A DNA stretch of 56,977 nt, taken from positions 1 through 56,977 of the forward strand of contig DATJTX010000007.1 of assembly GCA_035502855.1 (NCBI GenBank), given 5' to 3'. Shown here piece after piece: positions 44,141 through 51,989 of the stretch (position 1 is the first letter of the stretch; each line of letters opens with the position of its first letter). The DNA is from Candidatus Baltobacteraceae bacterium (GTDB taxonomy: Bacteria > Vulcanimicrobiota > Vulcanimicrobiia > Vulcanimicrobiales > Vulcanimicrobiaceae). The position numbers were made by a program, and so were the translations under genes. A model generated the notes under the pieces. It searched no databases and was not told the origin of the DNA. It saw only the letters and a program-made list of their open reading frames with translations.

Positions 44141-44245
44141 GGCCGCACGATGCGGCCGCCCGGCCGAACCGTCTAGCCGCACGATGCGGCTGAAGGTTCG
44201 GAGCACAGGATGTGCACCCGGCCGAAGGCCGGCCGAACCGTCTAG
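44141..44245. repeat. Paired direct repeats at the receptor 3' end
   Basis: GCCGCACGATGCGGC occurs at 44142-44156 and 44176-44190; each copy is itself a hairpin. GGCCGAACCGTCTAG occurs at 44162-44176 and 44231-44245, the latter spanning the receptor stop codon. Probably a duplicated transcript-end module. Confidence 0.55.
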
Positions 44246-47200
44246 AGTTTGATCCTAAAGTCGAGGTAGGCGTTGAACGGCAGCGAACCGACGATCGGCG
44301 TGTAGCCGTACGCGGTCTGTGCCTGCGCCAACTCGCCGCCGGTTGCGGTGAGCGGAGCCACGTTGCCGACCGGTGCACCGTACTCCTCCGCGGTCGACGA
44401 GCCGTAGCCGCAAATCGCCCGCGAGGGAAGTCCGTAAGCACTAGTTGTCCACGGAGCCTTCGTGCCGCCGGCGCAGATATCAAAGATATTTGCAAGCGTC
44501 AGCACTGCGGTGATCCGCGGGGTGAGATCGTACGACAACTGCGTGCTCAGCGTGTATCGGGACGGAGTGATGAACGCACCCATGTTGTCGAATTTACCGG
44601 TTGAGATGTCGGGGATATACAGCGTGTCCGTACAGCTCGCCGGGTTGGCTGCATTCCCGTAGCCGCCGGCCGAGCCGTAGTAGACCGAGCCGATGGGGAA
44701 TGTGCTCGCGGTGCTGCAACTCGAGGGGTCGTACCCGGTCTCGGCCAGCGGGTAGCCGTAACGATTGCCGGCGCTGAATTGCAGCGCGGGCGTGATCGCC
44801 CACTTGTCGTGCTTGTAGTTCAGCACGATCGTGGCCACGTACGGCGTGACGAAGGACGAATAGTCCCCTGCAGCCGGCGTGAACGGGAACAGGCTATACG
44901 GCCAATAGTCCGCACCGGTGCTGAAGAGCGCCTGCGGCGATGCGTTCCAGTATGGGTTGGCGACATCCGCAGCGGTGCAAGCCGACGCCGGACTGGCCGC
45001 GGTGATGCCGGGGCCGTAGCACGGCTGCACCGCGGCGCCGCTCGGTGTGGTCGGTGTTCCCGAGCCGCAAAGCGATTTCGACGCCGTGCCCGTTGCGCAC
45101 GCCGACGTCATCGCGTTGTAGGCCTGGATGTTGTCGTTGATCGCGGTCAGAACCGACGAACCCGAGGTCAGGTTGCTATAATTCACGTACGCATTGGTGT
45201 AGGTGAATGCGAGCAATCCCGAGAGGCCGTTTCGTGAGAAGTCACCTTTCTGCAAGTCGAACTCGAAGCCCCGATTCGTTTGCGCGCCGATGTTCAAACC
45301 CGAGACGAAGCCGGTGGTGACGTTGAGGAAGAACTCCTGGATCTGGTCTTGTGTCTTGCGATAGAAAGGCGTGATCTTCATCGACCAGTCCGTTCCTTTG
45401 AACTGGTGCTCCCACGACAGGTCGTAGTTGTTGGAGACTTCGGGAGCGATCGGATAGGTCGGGCTCGTGCGGCCGTAGCCGAAAAACGTCGGCCCGAGAT
45501 AATCCGGCAGATCCTGCTGTAGCGTGTCGTACTCTTCGAACGCCGTCGTCGGCGCTTGATCGTACCGGCCGTAGCTGGCTCGGATCACGTTGAGCGGGTT
45601 GAGCGTGTACGTAAGCCCAACGCGCGGCTGCCACACTTCGAATGTGTTGGTAACGGGGTCGTTCGTAAGTGTTGCCGGGACATAACCGGTGCCGAACGGC
45701 GCTCCCTCGACCGCCGTGTTGGTGCACCCTCCATTGCTCGCGTTGACGGCGGTCGTCACCACCGGAAGCGGAACCGCTGCGCTACCCGGCGACGCCGTGT
45801 TGTAACACATCTCGTTGTTCCAGGCATTGAACCAGAAGTTACGCGCACCGCCGGCCGTACTATTCGGGACGAATCCGAAGTCGTCGAACCGGACGCCGAC
45901 GTTGAAATGCAGCTTATCGGTCGGATCCCAATTATCGGTGATCGCGCCCGAGTAGAATTGCGGCGTGACGTCGTTGTATTCGCCGTCGTAGCCGTTCTCG
46001 GTGGCGAGCCATTCGCACGGCGCGCCGCCGCAGGTTCCGGTGATCGGGGCGAAGGCTGCCGCTCCACCGGTGGCCGCCGCACCGACGGTGACGTTACCCG
46101 GGGCGTAGCCCTGTATCGTGCTGCAGCCGGTGGGTGTTCCATTCGGCATGTAGCAGATCCCCGAGTCGGGATCCGCCGAGCTCACCAGCGTTGCCATCTG
46201 CATGCCGTTGCTCTCGAACCCCGTGTACGAGTTGGTGCGTTCGGAGCTCGCCGTCGTGTACGAGCCTTGTACTTGCAGCAAGTTCTCAGGGTTGAGCTGA
46301 TCGGCAAACTCCGCGCTGAAGCCGCGCGTGTGCGAGCTGACCTGATAGTCGGCCGGAATCGAGTACTGATCGACTCCCGTCTCCAGATAGTACGCGACAC
46401 CGTCCGGACCGTAGTTGAGCCAGTTGGAGTAGTCGGTGTAGCCGTACATGCGCAGATAGGCATTGGAACCGAAGTTCTTCTGATATTGCACTTTGATGAT
46501 GGCATCGTTGATCTGCTCGTCATCGCGGTTGTTGACTGGCAAGGTCGACCCTTGCGCGTCGGGCCACGTATACGGCGAGATTTGGCTGCTGATGTTCGCC
46601 GGATTGATCGCGGTATTCAGCCCGCCGGTGTAAACGTTGCCCGACAGATACGGAATCGAGGTGCCGATTCCGAGCGCCGGGTTGCTGAAGAGATTGCCGA
46701 AGTCGGTAATCGCGTTCGAGAGATATTCATCGATTGACGAAGTCTCGTAGAGCGCTTGGATGTCGTCACGGCCGCCGTCGTGTTTGTGCGGAATGCCGAA
46801 ATGGAAATTCAGCACCGTATCGCGGTCGTACAGCGTGGTCGGAAAGACGTCCGCTGAGAAAGGCGAGTTCACGAAGCCGGGCGTTACCACACCGTCGGCT
46901 GGGTTGCCGGTCGTGAAGACACTCTGACCCGGCATCCAGGTCCCGTTCACGTAACACGACGGCAGACTCGCCGTCGGCGCAGCCGGGCACGGCGTAAAGA
47001 CGGAGCCGTACGCGTTGCTGATCGACGCGCCGTCGAATTGATCGTAGACGCGCGTGTCCTGGTTGTATCCGCCGAGACCAACGTAATATGAGAAGAGCCG
47101 GTCCGGCGAGGCGCCTCCTACCTCCACGTTTGCTTTGTGATAAAACGTTGGGAAGCCGACGCCCAGATCGGACGAGGCGTAGCCGGGATACGTGCCGGTC

Positions 47201-47943
47201 TTGATCACCTGGTTGATGTATCCCGCCAGACCTTGACCTTGCGCATCGGCCGGCGCAGCGCCGGTATAGACCTGCACTTCCTGTTGACCGAGCGAGGTTG
47301 CCGTATTCGATGGATAGGTATCGAACGAGCGGTTGACCGGAACGCCGTCGACTTCGTAGCCGACTTGATCGAAGTCACCGCCGCGAATATAGACGGTCTG
47401 GAACCAGCCCATTTGGCCGACCGGCACGTAGGCGCCGGGCATCGTCGCGATCGCCGAATAGGCGTTGTCGAGACCGCCCCCGCCGCCCAGGCCGGTAACT
47501 TTGGCACTGGTCGCCGCATTTACCGAGTACACGTCGGAGGTCGTGCCCGCTCTGATGAGTGCGCCCGGTGCCGTCGAAACGGTCGTCGCGATGATCTTGA
47601 GCCGTGGTTTCATCGTAAAGGCGAGCGTCTGCGTTTGGTCGGCAAAGACCGTGATGCCCGCGATCGAGATAGGATCGTAATCTGCTTTTTCGAGCGACAC
47701 CGTATATGTATCCGGTGCCAGCGAGAGGAACACGAAGTGTCCCGAGGCGTCGGTGGTGGTAGTGGCAATTTGCGACGCCGAGGTAGCCTTGACGGCCGCA
47801 CCCGCTATCGGTTTGCCACTCGTGTCGTTTACCGTCCCGCTCAAGCCGCCGGTTGTTCCCGCCAGTACCCATGTTCCCTGGCAGAAAAATGCGACGGCCA
47901 TAGCGAGTCCCACCACAGAACGCCGTAGCGTTGAGCGTTTCAT
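44242..47943 (-). CDS. TonB-dependent receptor with CarboxypepD_reg-like domain
   Basis: A 1233-residue outer-membrane receptor. A signal peptide (VVGLAMAVAFFCQGTWVLA) precedes a carboxypeptidase-regulatory-like Ig domain (residues about 33-112). A plug domain follows with VYIRGGDFDQVGYEVDGVPVNRSFDTYP and a barrel to the end (NAYLDFRIKL). No clear TonB box is visible before the plug. It takes up a bulky nutrient in an energy-dependent way; the ligand is unknown. Similar receptors are common in Acidobacteria-like lineages. Confidence 0.88.
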   Translation of the reverse strand: MKRSTLRRSVVGLAMAVAFFCQGTWVLAGTTGGLSGTVNDTSGKPIAGAAVKATSASQIATTTTDASGHFVFLSLAPDTYTVSLEKADYDPISIAGITVFADQTQTLAFTMKPRLKIIATTVSTAPGALIRAGTTSDVYSVNAATSAKVTGLGGGGGLDNAYSAIATMPGAYVPVGQMGWFQTVYIRGGDFDQVGYEVDGVPVNRSFDTYPSNTATSLGQQEVQVYTGAAPADAQGQGLAGYINQVIKTGTYPGYASSDLGVGFPTFYHKANVEVGGASPDRLFSYYVGLGGYNQDTRVYDQFDGASISNAYGSVFTPCPAAPTASLPSCYVNGTWMPGQSVFTTGNPADGVVTPGFVNSPFSADVFPTTLYDRDTVLNFHFGIPHKHDGGRDDIQALYETSSIDEYLSNAITDFGNLFSNPALGIGTSIPYLSGNVYTGGLNTAINPANISSQISPYTWPDAQGSTLPVNNRDDEQINDAIIKVQYQKNFGSNAYLRMYGYTDYSNWLNYGPDGVAYYLETGVDQYSIPADYQVSSHTRGFSAEFADQLNPENLLQVQGSYTTASSERTNSYTGFESNGMQMATLVSSADPDSGICYMPNGTPTGCSTIQGYAPGNVTVGAAATGGAAAFAPITGTCGGAPCEWLATENGYDGEYNDVTPQFYSGAITDNWDPTDKLHFNVGVRFDDFGFVPNSTAGGARNFWFNAWNNEMCYNTASPGSAAVPLPVVTTAVNASNGGCTNTAVEGAPFGTGYVPATLTNDPVTNTFEVWQPRVGLTYTLNPLNVIRASYGRYDQAPTTAFEEYDTLQQDLPDYLGPTFFGYGRTSPTYPIAPEVSNNYDLSWEHQFKGTDWSMKITPFYRKTQDQIQEFFLNVTTGFVSGLNIGAQTNRGFEFDLQKGDFSRNGLSGLLAFTYTNAYVNYSNLTSGSSVLTAINDNIQAYNAMTSACATGTASKSLCGSGTPTTPSGAAVQPCYGPGITAASPASACTAADVANPYWNASPQALFSTGADYWPYSLFPFTPAAGDYSSFVTPYVATIVLNYKHDKWAITPALQFSAGNRYGYPLAETGYDPSSCSTASTFPIGSVYYGSAGGYGNAANPASCTDTLYIPDISTGKFDNMGAFITPSRYTLSTQLSYDLTPRITAVLTLANIFDICAGGTKAPWTTSAYGLPSRAICGYGSSTAEEYGAPVGNVAPLTATGGELAQAQTAYGYTPIVGSLPFNAYLDFRIKL

Positions 47944-48121
47944 GCGTTGGTTTTCCTCATTTCTGGTGTCCTAAAGAAGTATGCGAAAACACGCGGCACG
48001 CGGCCGCGCAACATCGCGCCTCAAGCATGGCACAGGAGTAGCTCAGCATGCATAACGCGAAACAACACGCACGTTAGATCGTGTCAAGCGCAACGACGGT
48101 AAAGATGGGACGATAGTGTCG

Positions 48122-49177
48122 ATGCAAATTGTACGTTCATGCGTGGCGCTCTGTGCTATCTTCGCGCTCTGCGCGCTCGCCGAAGGCTCCACGATGCCCT
48201 CGTTCGACGGCGGCAGCGCCTGGTTCGACAGCCCGCCGCTGCAACCGAGCGCTCTGCGCGGCAAGGTCGTGCTCGTCGATTTCTGGGAATACACGTGCTT
48301 GAATTGTCTGCGCACGCTGCCGTATCTGCGGGAGTGGTACAAGCGCTATCACGACGACGGCTTCACGATCGTCGGCGTGCAGTCTCCCGAATTCGATTTC
48401 TCGGGGCAACCCAAAAATGTCGAAGAGGGGGCCAAGCAGCTTGGCATTACCTGGCCGGTGATCGTGGATCCCAATCACACGATCTGGTCCCGCTACGGCG
48501 TTGAGGTGTGGCCGACCGAAATGCTCTTCGACCAGCAGGGCCGGCTCGTCGACGTGAATACCGGCGAGGGCAACTACCAATTGACCGAATCGAAGATTCA
48601 GGCGCTGCTGCGCGCGGGAAACCCGAGCCTCGCGCTGCCGCCGCTGATGGCGCTCCTGCCGCAAGACAACTACGATAAACCCGGCGCGGTGTGTTATCCG
48701 ATGACCCCGGAGATTTTGACCGGGCGTGCGCCGATTGCCGACGCGCCGTCGTTCGGGAATCCCGCGACCGATCTCGACTACGCCGATCGCGGCGGCAATC
48801 ACCGTGACGGCGCGGTCTATCTCGACGGCTACTGGCACGCGAATCCCGAGGGCGTCTTTTTTGGCGGCGGGGGTGGTTACTTCGAGCTGGAGTACCACGC
48901 GATACAGGTGTCGGTCGTGATGTCGCCGGGGCGCGGTCCTTCACGCGTCGACGTGAGCGAAGACGGTGCCCCCGTGCCGCGCGAGGACGCCGGAGCGGAC
49001 CTGCAATACGACGCGAGCGGAAAGTCGTACGTGCTGGTCGATGCTCCCCGTGCGTACGATCTGATCATGAACAAGAACTTCGGACACCACGACCTGCGTC
49101 TGTCACCACAGGGCTACGACGTCGGTATTTACGATATCGCGTTCGAGTCGTGCGAGGTGCCCGGCGCAGCCAAGTGA
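48122..49177 (+). CDS. Exported thioredoxin-like protein, DipZ-like C-terminus
   Basis: A 351-residue protein. A signal peptide (MQIVRSCVALCAIFALCAL) is followed by a thioredoxin fold with redox motif CLNC in DFWEYTCLNCLRTLPYL and cis-Pro in VWPTEMLF. The C-terminal half (GYDVGIYDIAFE; LDGYWHANPEGV) is the beta-rich domain seen after the thioredoxin module in DipZ proteins. It is probably a periplasmic disulfide reductase or sensor. A GTG at 48116 is an alternative start. Confidence 0.82.
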   Translation: MQIVRSCVALCAIFALCALAEGSTMPSFDGGSAWFDSPPLQPSALRGKVVLVDFWEYTCLNCLRTLPYLREWYKRYHDDGFTIVGVQSPEFDFSGQPKNVEEGAKQLGITWPVIVDPNHTIWSRYGVEVWPTEMLFDQQGRLVDVNTGEGNYQLTESKIQALLRAGNPSLALPPLMALLPQDNYDKPGAVCYPMTPEILTGRAPIADAPSFGNPATDLDYADRGGNHRDGAVYLDGYWHANPEGVFFGGGGGYFELEYHAIQVSVVMSPGRGPSRVDVSEDGAPVPREDAGADLQYDASGKSYVLVDAPRAYDLIMNKNFGHHDLRLSPQGYDVGIYDIAFESCEVPGAAK

Positions 49178-50544
49178 AGCGCGCGGCAGCGCGCACACAG
49201 CGACATGCGAAAAAATTCGTTCAATTCGCTCGAACGTAACGGCTCCGCACAGCGATCGCAAAGCGGCGGCCGTCCACGTTCGATCGTGCGTATCAGGTCT
49301 GCATGCGTCCGCCGCAGCGGGGCATAGAGCGGATCGATCGCGGCAATGAACAGCGCCGGCTCGCGCGTCATGAGGGCGCGCTGCAGCAATTCTGCCGCGG
49401 TCTCGTTGTGCCCTAACGCGAGATGCACGGCGCTGAGCGAGATCTCCGCCGGCATCGGTGAGCGCTCGAGCAACGCGATCGCATCGCGCGCTTGCGCGCG
49501 ATCCCCACGCCGGGCGGCGATGATTCCACGCGTCGCCGCGACGCGCGTTGCCATGTCCGGGCCGCTGATGCGCTCGAGCCGGCGCAGAGCGAGGTCATAG
49601 GTTTCCAGCATCGTGCACGAACACGCATCATAGAAGATCGCCGGCGTGTGTTCGGGATCGAGGGTGAGCGCGTTTTCGAAATAGCGGCGCGCCTCGTCGT
49701 ACCGGCCCGCGATATAGAGCGCTATCCCGAGCTGCGAGGTCGCGTTCGGTGAAGCGGGCCGTGCGCTCACGGCCAAGTCGGCTTGGGTCAGCGCCGCGTC
49801 GAAATCTTGGCGGGCGAGGCGCTCCCAAAGGGCAGCGCTGTGCGCGGCGGGCAACTGCGGACCGAGCACCAGCGCATGCTCGACCGCGCTGCGCGTCTGT
49901 TCGCGATTCGCACCGAAAAAGAGCAGCAGCGTTGCCAGCGCGGCGAACGCGTCGGCCGAAGAAGGATCGTCTTCGATGACGGTGGCGAGCGTGCACTTTG
50001 CGAGCCAATAGGCTCGGTACGGTTCGTAGAAGAGCCGGATGCCGGCGGCAATATAGGCCTTGGCAAGCATGATGCGGGCCGCAAGATAGTCGGGGTCGCG
50101 CTCGCAGATACGCTCGAAGAGCCCGATGGCCTGGATGATTGCGCCCTCGGTCCGGCGGCGAAACTTCGAGACCGCTTGCTGGAAGAGCGGAAATTCGGCG
50201 CGCTGGAAATCGGGCGACTGATTTGTTGCTTCGATCGGCGAACCACCGGTGAACTGCAAACCGATGCCGGGCACGGTGCGAATGAACTCGCGGTCGCCTC
50301 CGTGCTGCGAGAGCGTCTGCCGCAAGCGATAGACGGTTTGGGTCAGCGCGGCGTCGCTCGCCGCGGCGCCTCGCCAGAGCCGCTCGATGATCTCGTCTTT
50401 GGAGATGGTCCTCGGGCGCTGCAGGGCGAGGAACGCGAGGAGTTCGGCTTCCTTGGGCTTGAGCATCACGGGCGAACCGGCATGCCACAGCTGCTGCTCG
50501 GGCATGCTCAGCACGAACGGGCCGAAAAGAATCTCACTCAACAC
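49129..50544 (-). CDS. Winged-helix/TPR transcriptional regulator with C-terminal zinc site
   Basis: A 471-residue regulator. Residues 1-100 form an OmpR-type winged helix (LKPKEAELLAFLALQRPRTISKDEIIERLW, then LTQTVYRLRQTL). A TPR-like helical array follows (for example YDEARRYFENALTLDPEH). The C-terminus has CDRC...CARC, a likely zinc knuckle. SARP/CadC-like regulators have this winged-helix plus helical arrangement. It is divergent from the TauE/SafE fusion gene over 35 bp and may regulate it. The 3' end overlaps the DipZ-like gene by 49 bp. Confidence 0.82.
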   Translation of the reverse strand: MLSEILFGPFVLSMPEQQLWHAGSPVMLKPKEAELLAFLALQRPRTISKDEIIERLWRGAAASDAALTQTVYRLRQTLSQHGGDREFIRTVPGIGLQFTGGSPIEATNQSPDFQRAEFPLFQQAVSKFRRRTEGAIIQAIGLFERICERDPDYLAARIMLAKAYIAAGIRLFYEPYRAYWLAKCTLATVIEDDPSSADAFAALATLLLFFGANREQTRSAVEHALVLGPQLPAAHSAALWERLARQDFDAALTQADLAVSARPASPNATSQLGIALYIAGRYDEARRYFENALTLDPEHTPAIFYDACSCTMLETYDLALRRLERISGPDMATRVAATRGIIAARRGDRAQARDAIALLERSPMPAEISLSAVHLALGHNETAAELLQRALMTREPALFIAAIDPLYAPLRRTHADLIRTIERGRPPLCDRCAEPLRSSELNEFFRMSLCARCRALHLAAPGTSHDSNAIS

Positions 50545-50579
50545 CAGACTCTACGAACGATGCCGCGAACGTGTGACCC

Positions 50580-51617
50580 ATGCTGAGCATTGCCGTCTAT
50601 TTTCTCTGCGGCCTCGTCTTTGGTTATGTCGGTGGTCTCTTCGGTATCGGAGGTGGACTCATCGGTATTCCGGTGCTCGGGGTCTTCTTCGGATATTCGG
50701 AACAGGCGGCGCAGGGAACGGCGATGGTGATGATCGTGCCGAACGTCCTGCTCGGACTGTGGAACTACTTCCACAAAGTTGGATTCGACGTGCGTTTGGC
50801 GGTCACGCTCGCGGTTTCGGCCGTACCGTGTACCTACGTCGCGGCCCACTTCGCGACCACGATGCCGAGCGGGCTCTTGCGAATGGCCTTCGCGATTTTC
50901 ATCGCAGCCATTGCGGCGCAGATGGCGTGGCGCACCTTTGGTCCCCAGCGAGCCGTAGCCAAACACCATTACCCCTGGCCGCTGGCGGCGCTGATCGGAG
51001 CGGTCGGTGGAACGTTCTCAGGATTGTTCGGCGTCGGCGGCGCGATCTTCGCCGTGCCGATGATGTCGATGTTCTTCGGGTTGAGCCAAGTCGTCGCTCA
51101 AGGGATGGGCCTCGCGCTGGTTGCTCCGGGGACCGTGGTGAGCATCGTGACCTATGGTTTTGCGCGCGACGTTGCGTGGATTCCAGGAATCGCCCTTGCC
51201 CTCGGCGGAGCAATCGCGGTGCCTCACGGTGTCAATTTGGCCAAGCGGTTGCCCGAACGGGTTTTGCGAGCACTCTTCATCGCGCTGATGCTCGCCGCCG
51301 CGTTCGGTTTGGCGGTGCGCTCCTCGGCCCGGGCCGCGACCCTGTTTGCGCCCTCGGGCATTCTCGCCGCTCCGGCGAAGTACGAGCGCAAGAACGTCAC
51401 CGTGATCGGCATCGTGGAGGACGTCACGGTTCGAGCGATCCCGGGCGGCGTGGTTTCGCAGTTTGCGCTCTGCGACAGCCGCTGCATCAACGTGGTCGAG
51501 TTCACCCGGCCTTCGTTCGCACCGGGGCAGTCGCTCACCGTTGCCGGGACGTTCCATACGATCTTTTCCAACGGCATCATTCAAGCGCGCAACGTTATCA
51601 TCGTCTCTAATCCATAA
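50580..51617 (+). CDS. TauE/SafE (TSUP) permease fused to OB-fold-like domain
   Basis: A 345-residue membrane protein. Residues 1-248 are a TSUP transporter with the duplicated GGLFGIGGGLIGIPVL and GTFSGLFGVGGAIFAVP motifs. TSUP members carry sulfite, sulfonates or organosulfur anions. Residues about 256-342 are a soluble OB-fold-like domain with LCDSRCINVVEF, a Cys298-x3-Cys302 pair. The same domain is encoded alone by the next gene, nine bases downstream. I do not know a family with this fusion. Its side of the membrane is probably periplasmic, by analogy with the secreted partner. Confidence 0.82.
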   Translation: MLSIAVYFLCGLVFGYVGGLFGIGGGLIGIPVLGVFFGYSEQAAQGTAMVMIVPNVLLGLWNYFHKVGFDVRLAVTLAVSAVPCTYVAAHFATTMPSGLLRMAFAIFIAAIAAQMAWRTFGPQRAVAKHHYPWPLAALIGAVGGTFSGLFGVGGAIFAVPMMSMFFGLSQVVAQGMGLALVAPGTVVSIVTYGFARDVAWIPGIALALGGAIAVPHGVNLAKRLPERVLRALFIALMLAAAFGLAVRSSARAATLFAPSGILAAPAKYERKNVTVIGIVEDVTVRAIPGGVVSQFALCDSRCINVVEFTRPSFAPGQSLTVAGTFHTIFSNGIIQARNVIIVSNP

Positions 51618-51626
51618 GAGGTACCC

Positions 51627-51989
51627 ATGAAACACTTTTTCGCCCTCGCGGCCGTGCTCGCGATCTCGGCCGGCGTTGCATGTGCGGACACGGCGCTCGC
51701 ACCTTCAGCCGTCGTCGCCGGGGCGTCGACGTACGACCGCCAGAGCGTCACCGTCACCGGGACCGTCAAGAACGTGCAGACCAAGCAAGGCCCGCGCGGT
51801 ACGATCACGCAGTATCAACTCTGCGATGCGCAGTGCGTCAACGTCGTGCAGTTCGGAAGCGCCACGGTGAGCGAGGGGCAAACGCAAACGATCACCGGCC
51901 GCTTCCGCGCCTCGGTCGATCGCGGCCCGATGCACGCGCAGAACGTGATCATGGTGATGCCGGCCGGGGGCTGGCACCACCCGCACTGA
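51627..51989 (+). CDS. Secreted OB-fold-like protein with CxxxC motif
   Basis: A 120-residue exported protein: signal peptide MKHFFALAAVLAISAGVACA, then an 86-residue domain paralogous to the C-terminus of the preceding permease. Shared features are VTVTGTVKNV (partner VTVIGIVEDV), the YQLCDAQCVNVVQF motif with Cys66/Cys70, and AQNVIMV. The tail is GGWHHPH. The Cys pair could carry sulfur, form a disulfide or bind metal; no function is established. Confidence 0.75.
   Translation: MKHFFALAAVLAISAGVACADTALAPSAVVAGASTYDRQSVTVTGTVKNVQTKQGPRGTITQYQLCDAQCVNVVQFGSATVSEGQTQTITGRFRASVDRGPMHAQNVIMVMPAGGWHHPH

Follow-up and report, generated by a model that had tools for sequence, protein, structure and literature searches.

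TSUP (TauE/SafE) permeases are poorly characterised. Their predicted substrates are sulfur-based molecules (PMC5840216). BacA, which has the re-entrant plan predicted for the permease considered here, has both of its termini in the periplasm (PMC5852022). Among OB-fold proteins, the described systems closest to our locus are CcmE and the Klebsiella lipoprotein KPN03535. Here we describe a TSUP permease gene that continues in frame into an OB-fold domain with a CxxxC motif (OB1) and is followed by a stand-alone, exported paralogue of that domain (OB2). The window, by which we mean the whole stretch of DNA analysed (56,977 nucleotides), is one contig of a 3.33-Mb genome that is 96.6% complete. 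The features of the locus are as follows.

49129..50544, minus strand: divergent winged-helix (Trans_reg_C) and TPR regulator with a CxxC...CxxC tail (Pfam, synteny)
50545..50579, no strand: 35-bp spacer between the regulator and the fusion gene (ORF coordinates)
50580..51617, plus strand: fusion gene of 345 aa, TSUP (TauE/SafE) permease with a C-terminal OB-fold CxxxC domain (ORF, Pfam, AF2)
50580..51329, plus strand: TSUP part, aa ~1-250 (PF01925, model helices, loop charges, fold match)
51324..51330, plus strand: fusion junction (blastn against the sister-species TSUP and OB loci, L064 and L033)
51339..51614, plus strand: fused OB-fold domain OB1, with Cys298 and Cys302 (alignment, family profile, AF2)
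51471..51485, plus strand: LCDSRC Cys pair of OB1 in the beta2-beta3 turn, TGC codons at 51471-51473 and 51483-51485 (sequence, model)
51627..51989, plus strand: stand-alone exported OB paralogue OB2, 120 aa, mature from about 51687 (ORF, AF2, family profile)
51627..51686, plus strand: OB2 signal peptide with a possible weak lipobox, GVAC (by eye, relatives)
51822..51836, plus strand: LCDAQC Cys pair of OB2, Cys codons at 51822-51824 and 51834-51836 (sequence)

A reading of the locus made from the sequence alone had proposed a TSUP permease fused to an OB-fold CxxxC domain, and the gene is built in this way. One stop-free frame in the ORF listing (50580-51617) spans both parts, and the Pfam TauE profile PF01925 matches the permease as a whole domain over aa 7-242 (E=2.2e-43; 149 bits against a curated cut-off of 32.6). 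The AF2 model of the entire chain has a mean pLDDT of 92 and gives OB1 five long strands, at 272-287, 290-298, 302-307, 318-330, and 335-342, that form an OB barrel. OB2 is modeled as the same five-stranded barrel with a mean pLDDT of 85, and its top PDB matches are generic OB-fold proteins (best Foldseek E, 1.9e-3).

The same reading had held that the permease tail aligns along its length with the mature small protein encoded downstream. OB1 and mature OB2 were found to align end to end without gaps, with 35 of 89 residues identical (39%; E=1e-26) and a local score of 192, compared to a maximum of 42 over 1000 shuffles. The landmarks VTV.G.V, LCD..C.NVV.F, and NVI.V are found in both. With both window copies and the sister-species orthologue left out of its construction, a family profile scored OB1 and OB2 at 85.7 and 103.1 bits, while the best of 2000 shuffles scored 12.7. 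Both domains carry the profile match and Cys pair of the family described below, and each is preceded by an export element, which for OB1 is a transmembrane helix and for OB2 a signal peptide. The latter was read by eye as MKHFFALAAVLAISAGVACA followed by DTALA, and its possible GVAC lipobox lines up with the clear lipoboxes of relatives. A recent tandem duplication as the source of the two copies was rejected, since OB1 groups with the OB protein of the sister species (100/100). The highest identity of OB2, 52%, is to a protein of another genus. A third, more divergent paralogue is kept in both genomes of the genus (L043:3460-3804 in this genome and L129:5174-5518 in the other). OB2 ends in GGWHHPH (51960-51986), and a PHQGGWHG insert occurs in one relative (L044 5398-5829); these stretches look like Cu-binding octarepeats and are not conserved in the family.

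The position of OB1 relative to the membrane depends on the topology of the permease. In the model, the permease consists of a re-entrant helix pair plus three transmembrane helices, twice over. Mean net charges over 12 homologues are +2.7, +2.4, and +2.2 for the loops at aa 67-71, 120-134, and 223-226 and between about -1.7 and +0.8 for the remaining loops. The best PDB fold match of the permease model is BacA/UppP (6fmt/5oon), with a Foldseek probability of 1.00 and a TM score of 0.62 by target length. Because the alternation of loop charges fits the BacA plan, the C terminus of the permease is predicted to lie outside, in the periplasm; the export signals carried by the stand-alone OB proteins agree with this. 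One fixed and one mobile extracytoplasmic OB domain had been proposed for this locus; given the helix pattern, the loop charges, the BacA-like fold, and the signal peptide of OB2, a tethered and a mobile periplasmic OB protein are therefore well supported as a prediction.

OB-family members and C-terminal fusions to TSUPs were surveyed across this phylum, and named genomes were scanned with an OB pattern. OB domains occur in 48 of the 149 Eremiobacterota genomes searched (about 68 matches), including 42 of the 99 genomes of the same family. Genes in relatives were called with a simple hexamer-based caller, and export signals were recognised by eye; of the members read in this way, nearly all are small and carry either a signal peptide or a lipobox. 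The scan of named genomes used a narrow degenerate pattern that reaches close relatives only. It returned only Eremiobacterota records, and every named relative recovered is a metagenome-assembled genome of Candidatus Eremiobacterota (Vulcanimicrobiota). No relatives were found by plasmid tblastn or in a scan of viral contigs, and searching PDB sequences with the family profile yielded only chance hits (neurotrophins) plus a sub-threshold match to 3f1z. Because its sub-threshold Pfam matches scatter over tRNA_anti-like, CcmE, and DUF5818, the family is effectively unannotated. As judged from these sequences, the OB proteins form a family of small exported or lipid-anchored proteins that is, so far, lineage-restricted.

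The conservation of the two cysteines, on which the proposed chemistry of the domain had hung, is firm. The pair is present, as C-x3-C or C-x4-C, in 47 of 49 distinct OB frames, and the two exceptions belong to other families within the phylum. In an alignment of 35 sequences, each of the 33 same-family members has two cysteines and no more, and the 2 distant ones have none, so that the pair is, in the sequences aligned, kept or lost as a unit. The only other near-invariant positions are Gly, Leu, Val, and aromatic residues, and no conserved His, Met, or further Cys ligand is present in the 33 sequences. This genome encodes a VKOR-type disulfide-forming enzyme; a DsbA-like Thioredoxin_4 protein was not found in it. 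We infer that the Cys pair is most likely a disulfide that staples the beta2-beta3 hairpin.

The origin of the fusion can be followed by comparison with the sister species, in a genus sampled by two genomes, of which the sister genome is 74% complete. There, the two halves are separate genes. The TSUP orthologue (73% identical) is a 252-aa gene on another contig that ends right past the last helix; every one of the 11 TSUP homologues read out from the phylum besides the fused one stops just past its own. The OB1 orthologue (74% identity over 92 columns; paired with OB1 at 100/100 in the tree) is a stand-alone protein of 105 aa with its own short signal peptide. By blastn, DNA homology to the sister TSUP stops at 51324, and homology to the sister OB gene begins at 51329 in the same frame, leaving a gap of about 4 bp; the latter point falls inside the sister OB signal peptide. 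Only 1 of the about 68 OB copies in the phylum is fused. A fusion could fit only in frames longer than about 330 aa, and the three other OB matches in long frames (424, 524, and 479 aa) contain no TSUP. Both halves are under purifying selection like their neighbors (dN about 0.19-0.21 and dS above 1.4 against the sister genome, a comparison that includes pre-fusion time). That separate genes are ancestral is indicated mainly by one sister genome (74% complete) and by the unfused outgroup TSUPs, and the fusion, observed in a single assembly, looks young from these comparisons. An assembly chimera or sequencing error would account for a fusion seen in one genome whose genes are separate in the sister genome, but it is highly improbable, since the join is in frame precisely where both homologies end, lies in a single contig of a 96.6% complete assembly, and has flanks (the regulator; SixA/ParA) still syntenic with the sister locus.

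The regulator had been described as a divergently encoded winged-helix/TPR protein with its own zinc knuckle, 35 bp away, which agrees with its Trans_reg_C match (2.6e-15), its Pfam TPR matches, its CxxC...CxxC tail, and the spacer at 50545-50579. The OB gene of the sister species adjoins the orthologous divergent regulator across a 71-bp spacer and is followed downstream by the same genes for a SixA-like phosphatase and a NUBPL-type ParA ATPase. By this gene order, the regulator belongs to the OB gene and not to the TSUP gene, and the fusion has placed the permease beside it. A PEP-mutase gene takes the position of OB2 in the sister genome, where the second OB gene is missing from the locus. 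The sister TSUP gene adjoins a TonB-type receptor gene, with a redoxin homologue near. The TSUP gene and the carboxypeptidase-regulatory/TonB-type receptor gene are convergent there (L064:3360-7879), and the same convergent pair is found in another family of the class (L073:4440-8682); in the window, a TonB-type receptor gene (44242-47943) is still within 3 kb. At 48116-49177, the window also encodes an exported, thioredoxin-like protein that carries a CLNC motif and, C-terminally, a Thioredoxin_10 domain; the 3' end of its gene shares 49 bp with the regulator gene. Elsewhere in the phylum, one OB gene (L046:2789-5474) is convergent with an MFS transporter gene, which follows arsenate-reductase-like and aquaporin-like genes (by eye).

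These data probably reflect the move of a permease gene to a site beside an OB gene, with in-frame fusion inside the OB signal peptide and export and tethering of OB1 by the last permease helix. The TSUP gene would have been inserted into the spacer between the divergent regulator and the exported OB gene. We infer that the last transmembrane helix, running from inside to outside, took over the export function of the lost signal peptide, and it would also anchor OB1 at the periplasmic face. OB1 would then be a small periplasmic binding domain placed at the mouth of an organosulfur- or sulfite-type permease, while OB2, the more distant paralogue just downstream, would remain free or lipid-anchored.

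The sequence-only reading had gone further and taken the two genes for a sulfur or redox module. As a conserved module, this is not supported: in the sister species the OB and TSUP genes lie apart, the regulator stays with the OB gene, a second OB gene is missing from the locus, and no TSUP was found near any other OB locus examined. Since, of the species sampled, this one alone pairs a TSUP with an OB domain, a conserved sulfur module is not backed by genomic context. A sulfur-handling role, in which the OB domain binds sulfite, thiosulfate, or an organosulfonate, or carries a Cys-persulfide or S-sulfonate to the permease with OB2 as a mobile carrier, would suit the predicted substrates of the permease family (PMC5840216), the invariant Cys pair, the adjacent and co-directional fusion and OB2 genes, and the exported redoxin nearby, a homologue of which is also near the sister TSUP. 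It is nonetheless unlikely, given that dozens of genomes carry OB genes that have no TSUP nearby and an equally invariant Cys pair. About six TSUP loci but just three OB copies, one of them fused, are present in this genome; the OB domain is absent from the three other TSUPs that were read, and only 50580-51617 is known to carry one. No sulfur-metabolism genes were recognised beside OB loci. Its more specific form, in which the domain acts together with the TSUP as a periplasmic persulfide/S-sulfonate carrier or for substrate capture, is very unlikely; if true, it would give a TSUP a dedicated tethered periplasmic partner and a mobile copy. Because no conserved OB-TSUP link occurs elsewhere, the case for functional coupling comes solely from the fusion.

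Fusion as a secretion route only was also considered. The fusion point falls within the ancestral signal peptide, where an AxA-like site is retained, and KRLPERVLR, the hydrophobic helix, and RSSARA together resemble a signal sequence, so that signal peptidase might still cut the remnant c-region between SARA and ATLF and free OB1. We regard such release as unlikely, because the c-region is Arg-rich and the last helix (226-254 in the model) is long for a signal peptide.

A direct part for the two cysteines in sulfur or metal chemistry is possible, supported by their conservation only. A site for Cu(I), As(III), or Zn(II) in a periplasmic metal-binding or metal-stress protein would place the two invariant cysteines, which sit in a turn, as ligands, and it could draw on the GGWHHPH tail of OB2, the PHQGGWHG insert of one relative, and the OB gene that adjoins MFS transporter and arsenate-reductase-like genes. 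This is quite unlikely, however, since the 33 sequences hold no further conserved His, Met, or Cys ligand, the His tails are not conserved, and the neighbors of OB genes vary between lineages. A plain disulfide fits at least as well, because there are exactly two cysteines, no other conserved ligand, and a VKOR in the genome. The most economical reading is a periplasmic OB protein, stapled by a disulfide, of which one copy is tethered and another, beside it, is mobile.

This locus offers a clean natural example in which the last helix of a permease appears to replace the signal peptide of its partner, with both unfused orthologues present in a sister species. The analysis also defines a family of exported CxxxC OB proteins, unannotated and so far lineage-restricted, and the fused periplasmic domain provides a handle for testing the substrate and orientation of a TSUP.

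With CcmE (PF03100; 1sr3, 1j6q, 8ce8), the OB model shares a five-stranded, periplasm-exposed OB barrel, fold matches, and weak profile hits below the cut-off; the OB family differs in having a CxxxC turn and in lacking the C-terminal haem-binding His motif. Assignment of OB1 and OB2 to CcmE was rejected: they score 18.1 and 19.4 bits (21.0 and 19.1 in the whole-genome search) against a cut-off of 24.6, they have no conserved His, and OB1 stops at the last strand. The whole-genome profile search found no CcmE above the cut-off. PF12869 (tRNA_anti-like) and DUF5818 are likewise sub-threshold Pfam neighbors. KPN03535 (PDB 3f1z) is similarly small, with a signal peptide/lipobox and an OB fold, and is among the best fold matches, but its sequence match to the OB family is not significant (E 0.38), and the part of its description consulted mentions no Cys pair. 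On the membrane side, the predicted permease fold shares with BacA/UppP (5oon, 6fmt) the re-entrant pair plus three transmembrane helices, twice, a resemblance limited to the membrane part of the fusion protein; the likeness of TSUP and BacA folds may mean that a permease family and a lipid phosphatase are deeply related. With TSUP/TauE-SafE proteins (PF01925, TC 2.A.102), the window protein shares the two-repeat architecture and the FGxGGG motifs at the re-entrant pairs, and it differs from the 11 other homologues read out in its phylum in carrying a C-terminal OB domain that is predicted to be periplasmic.
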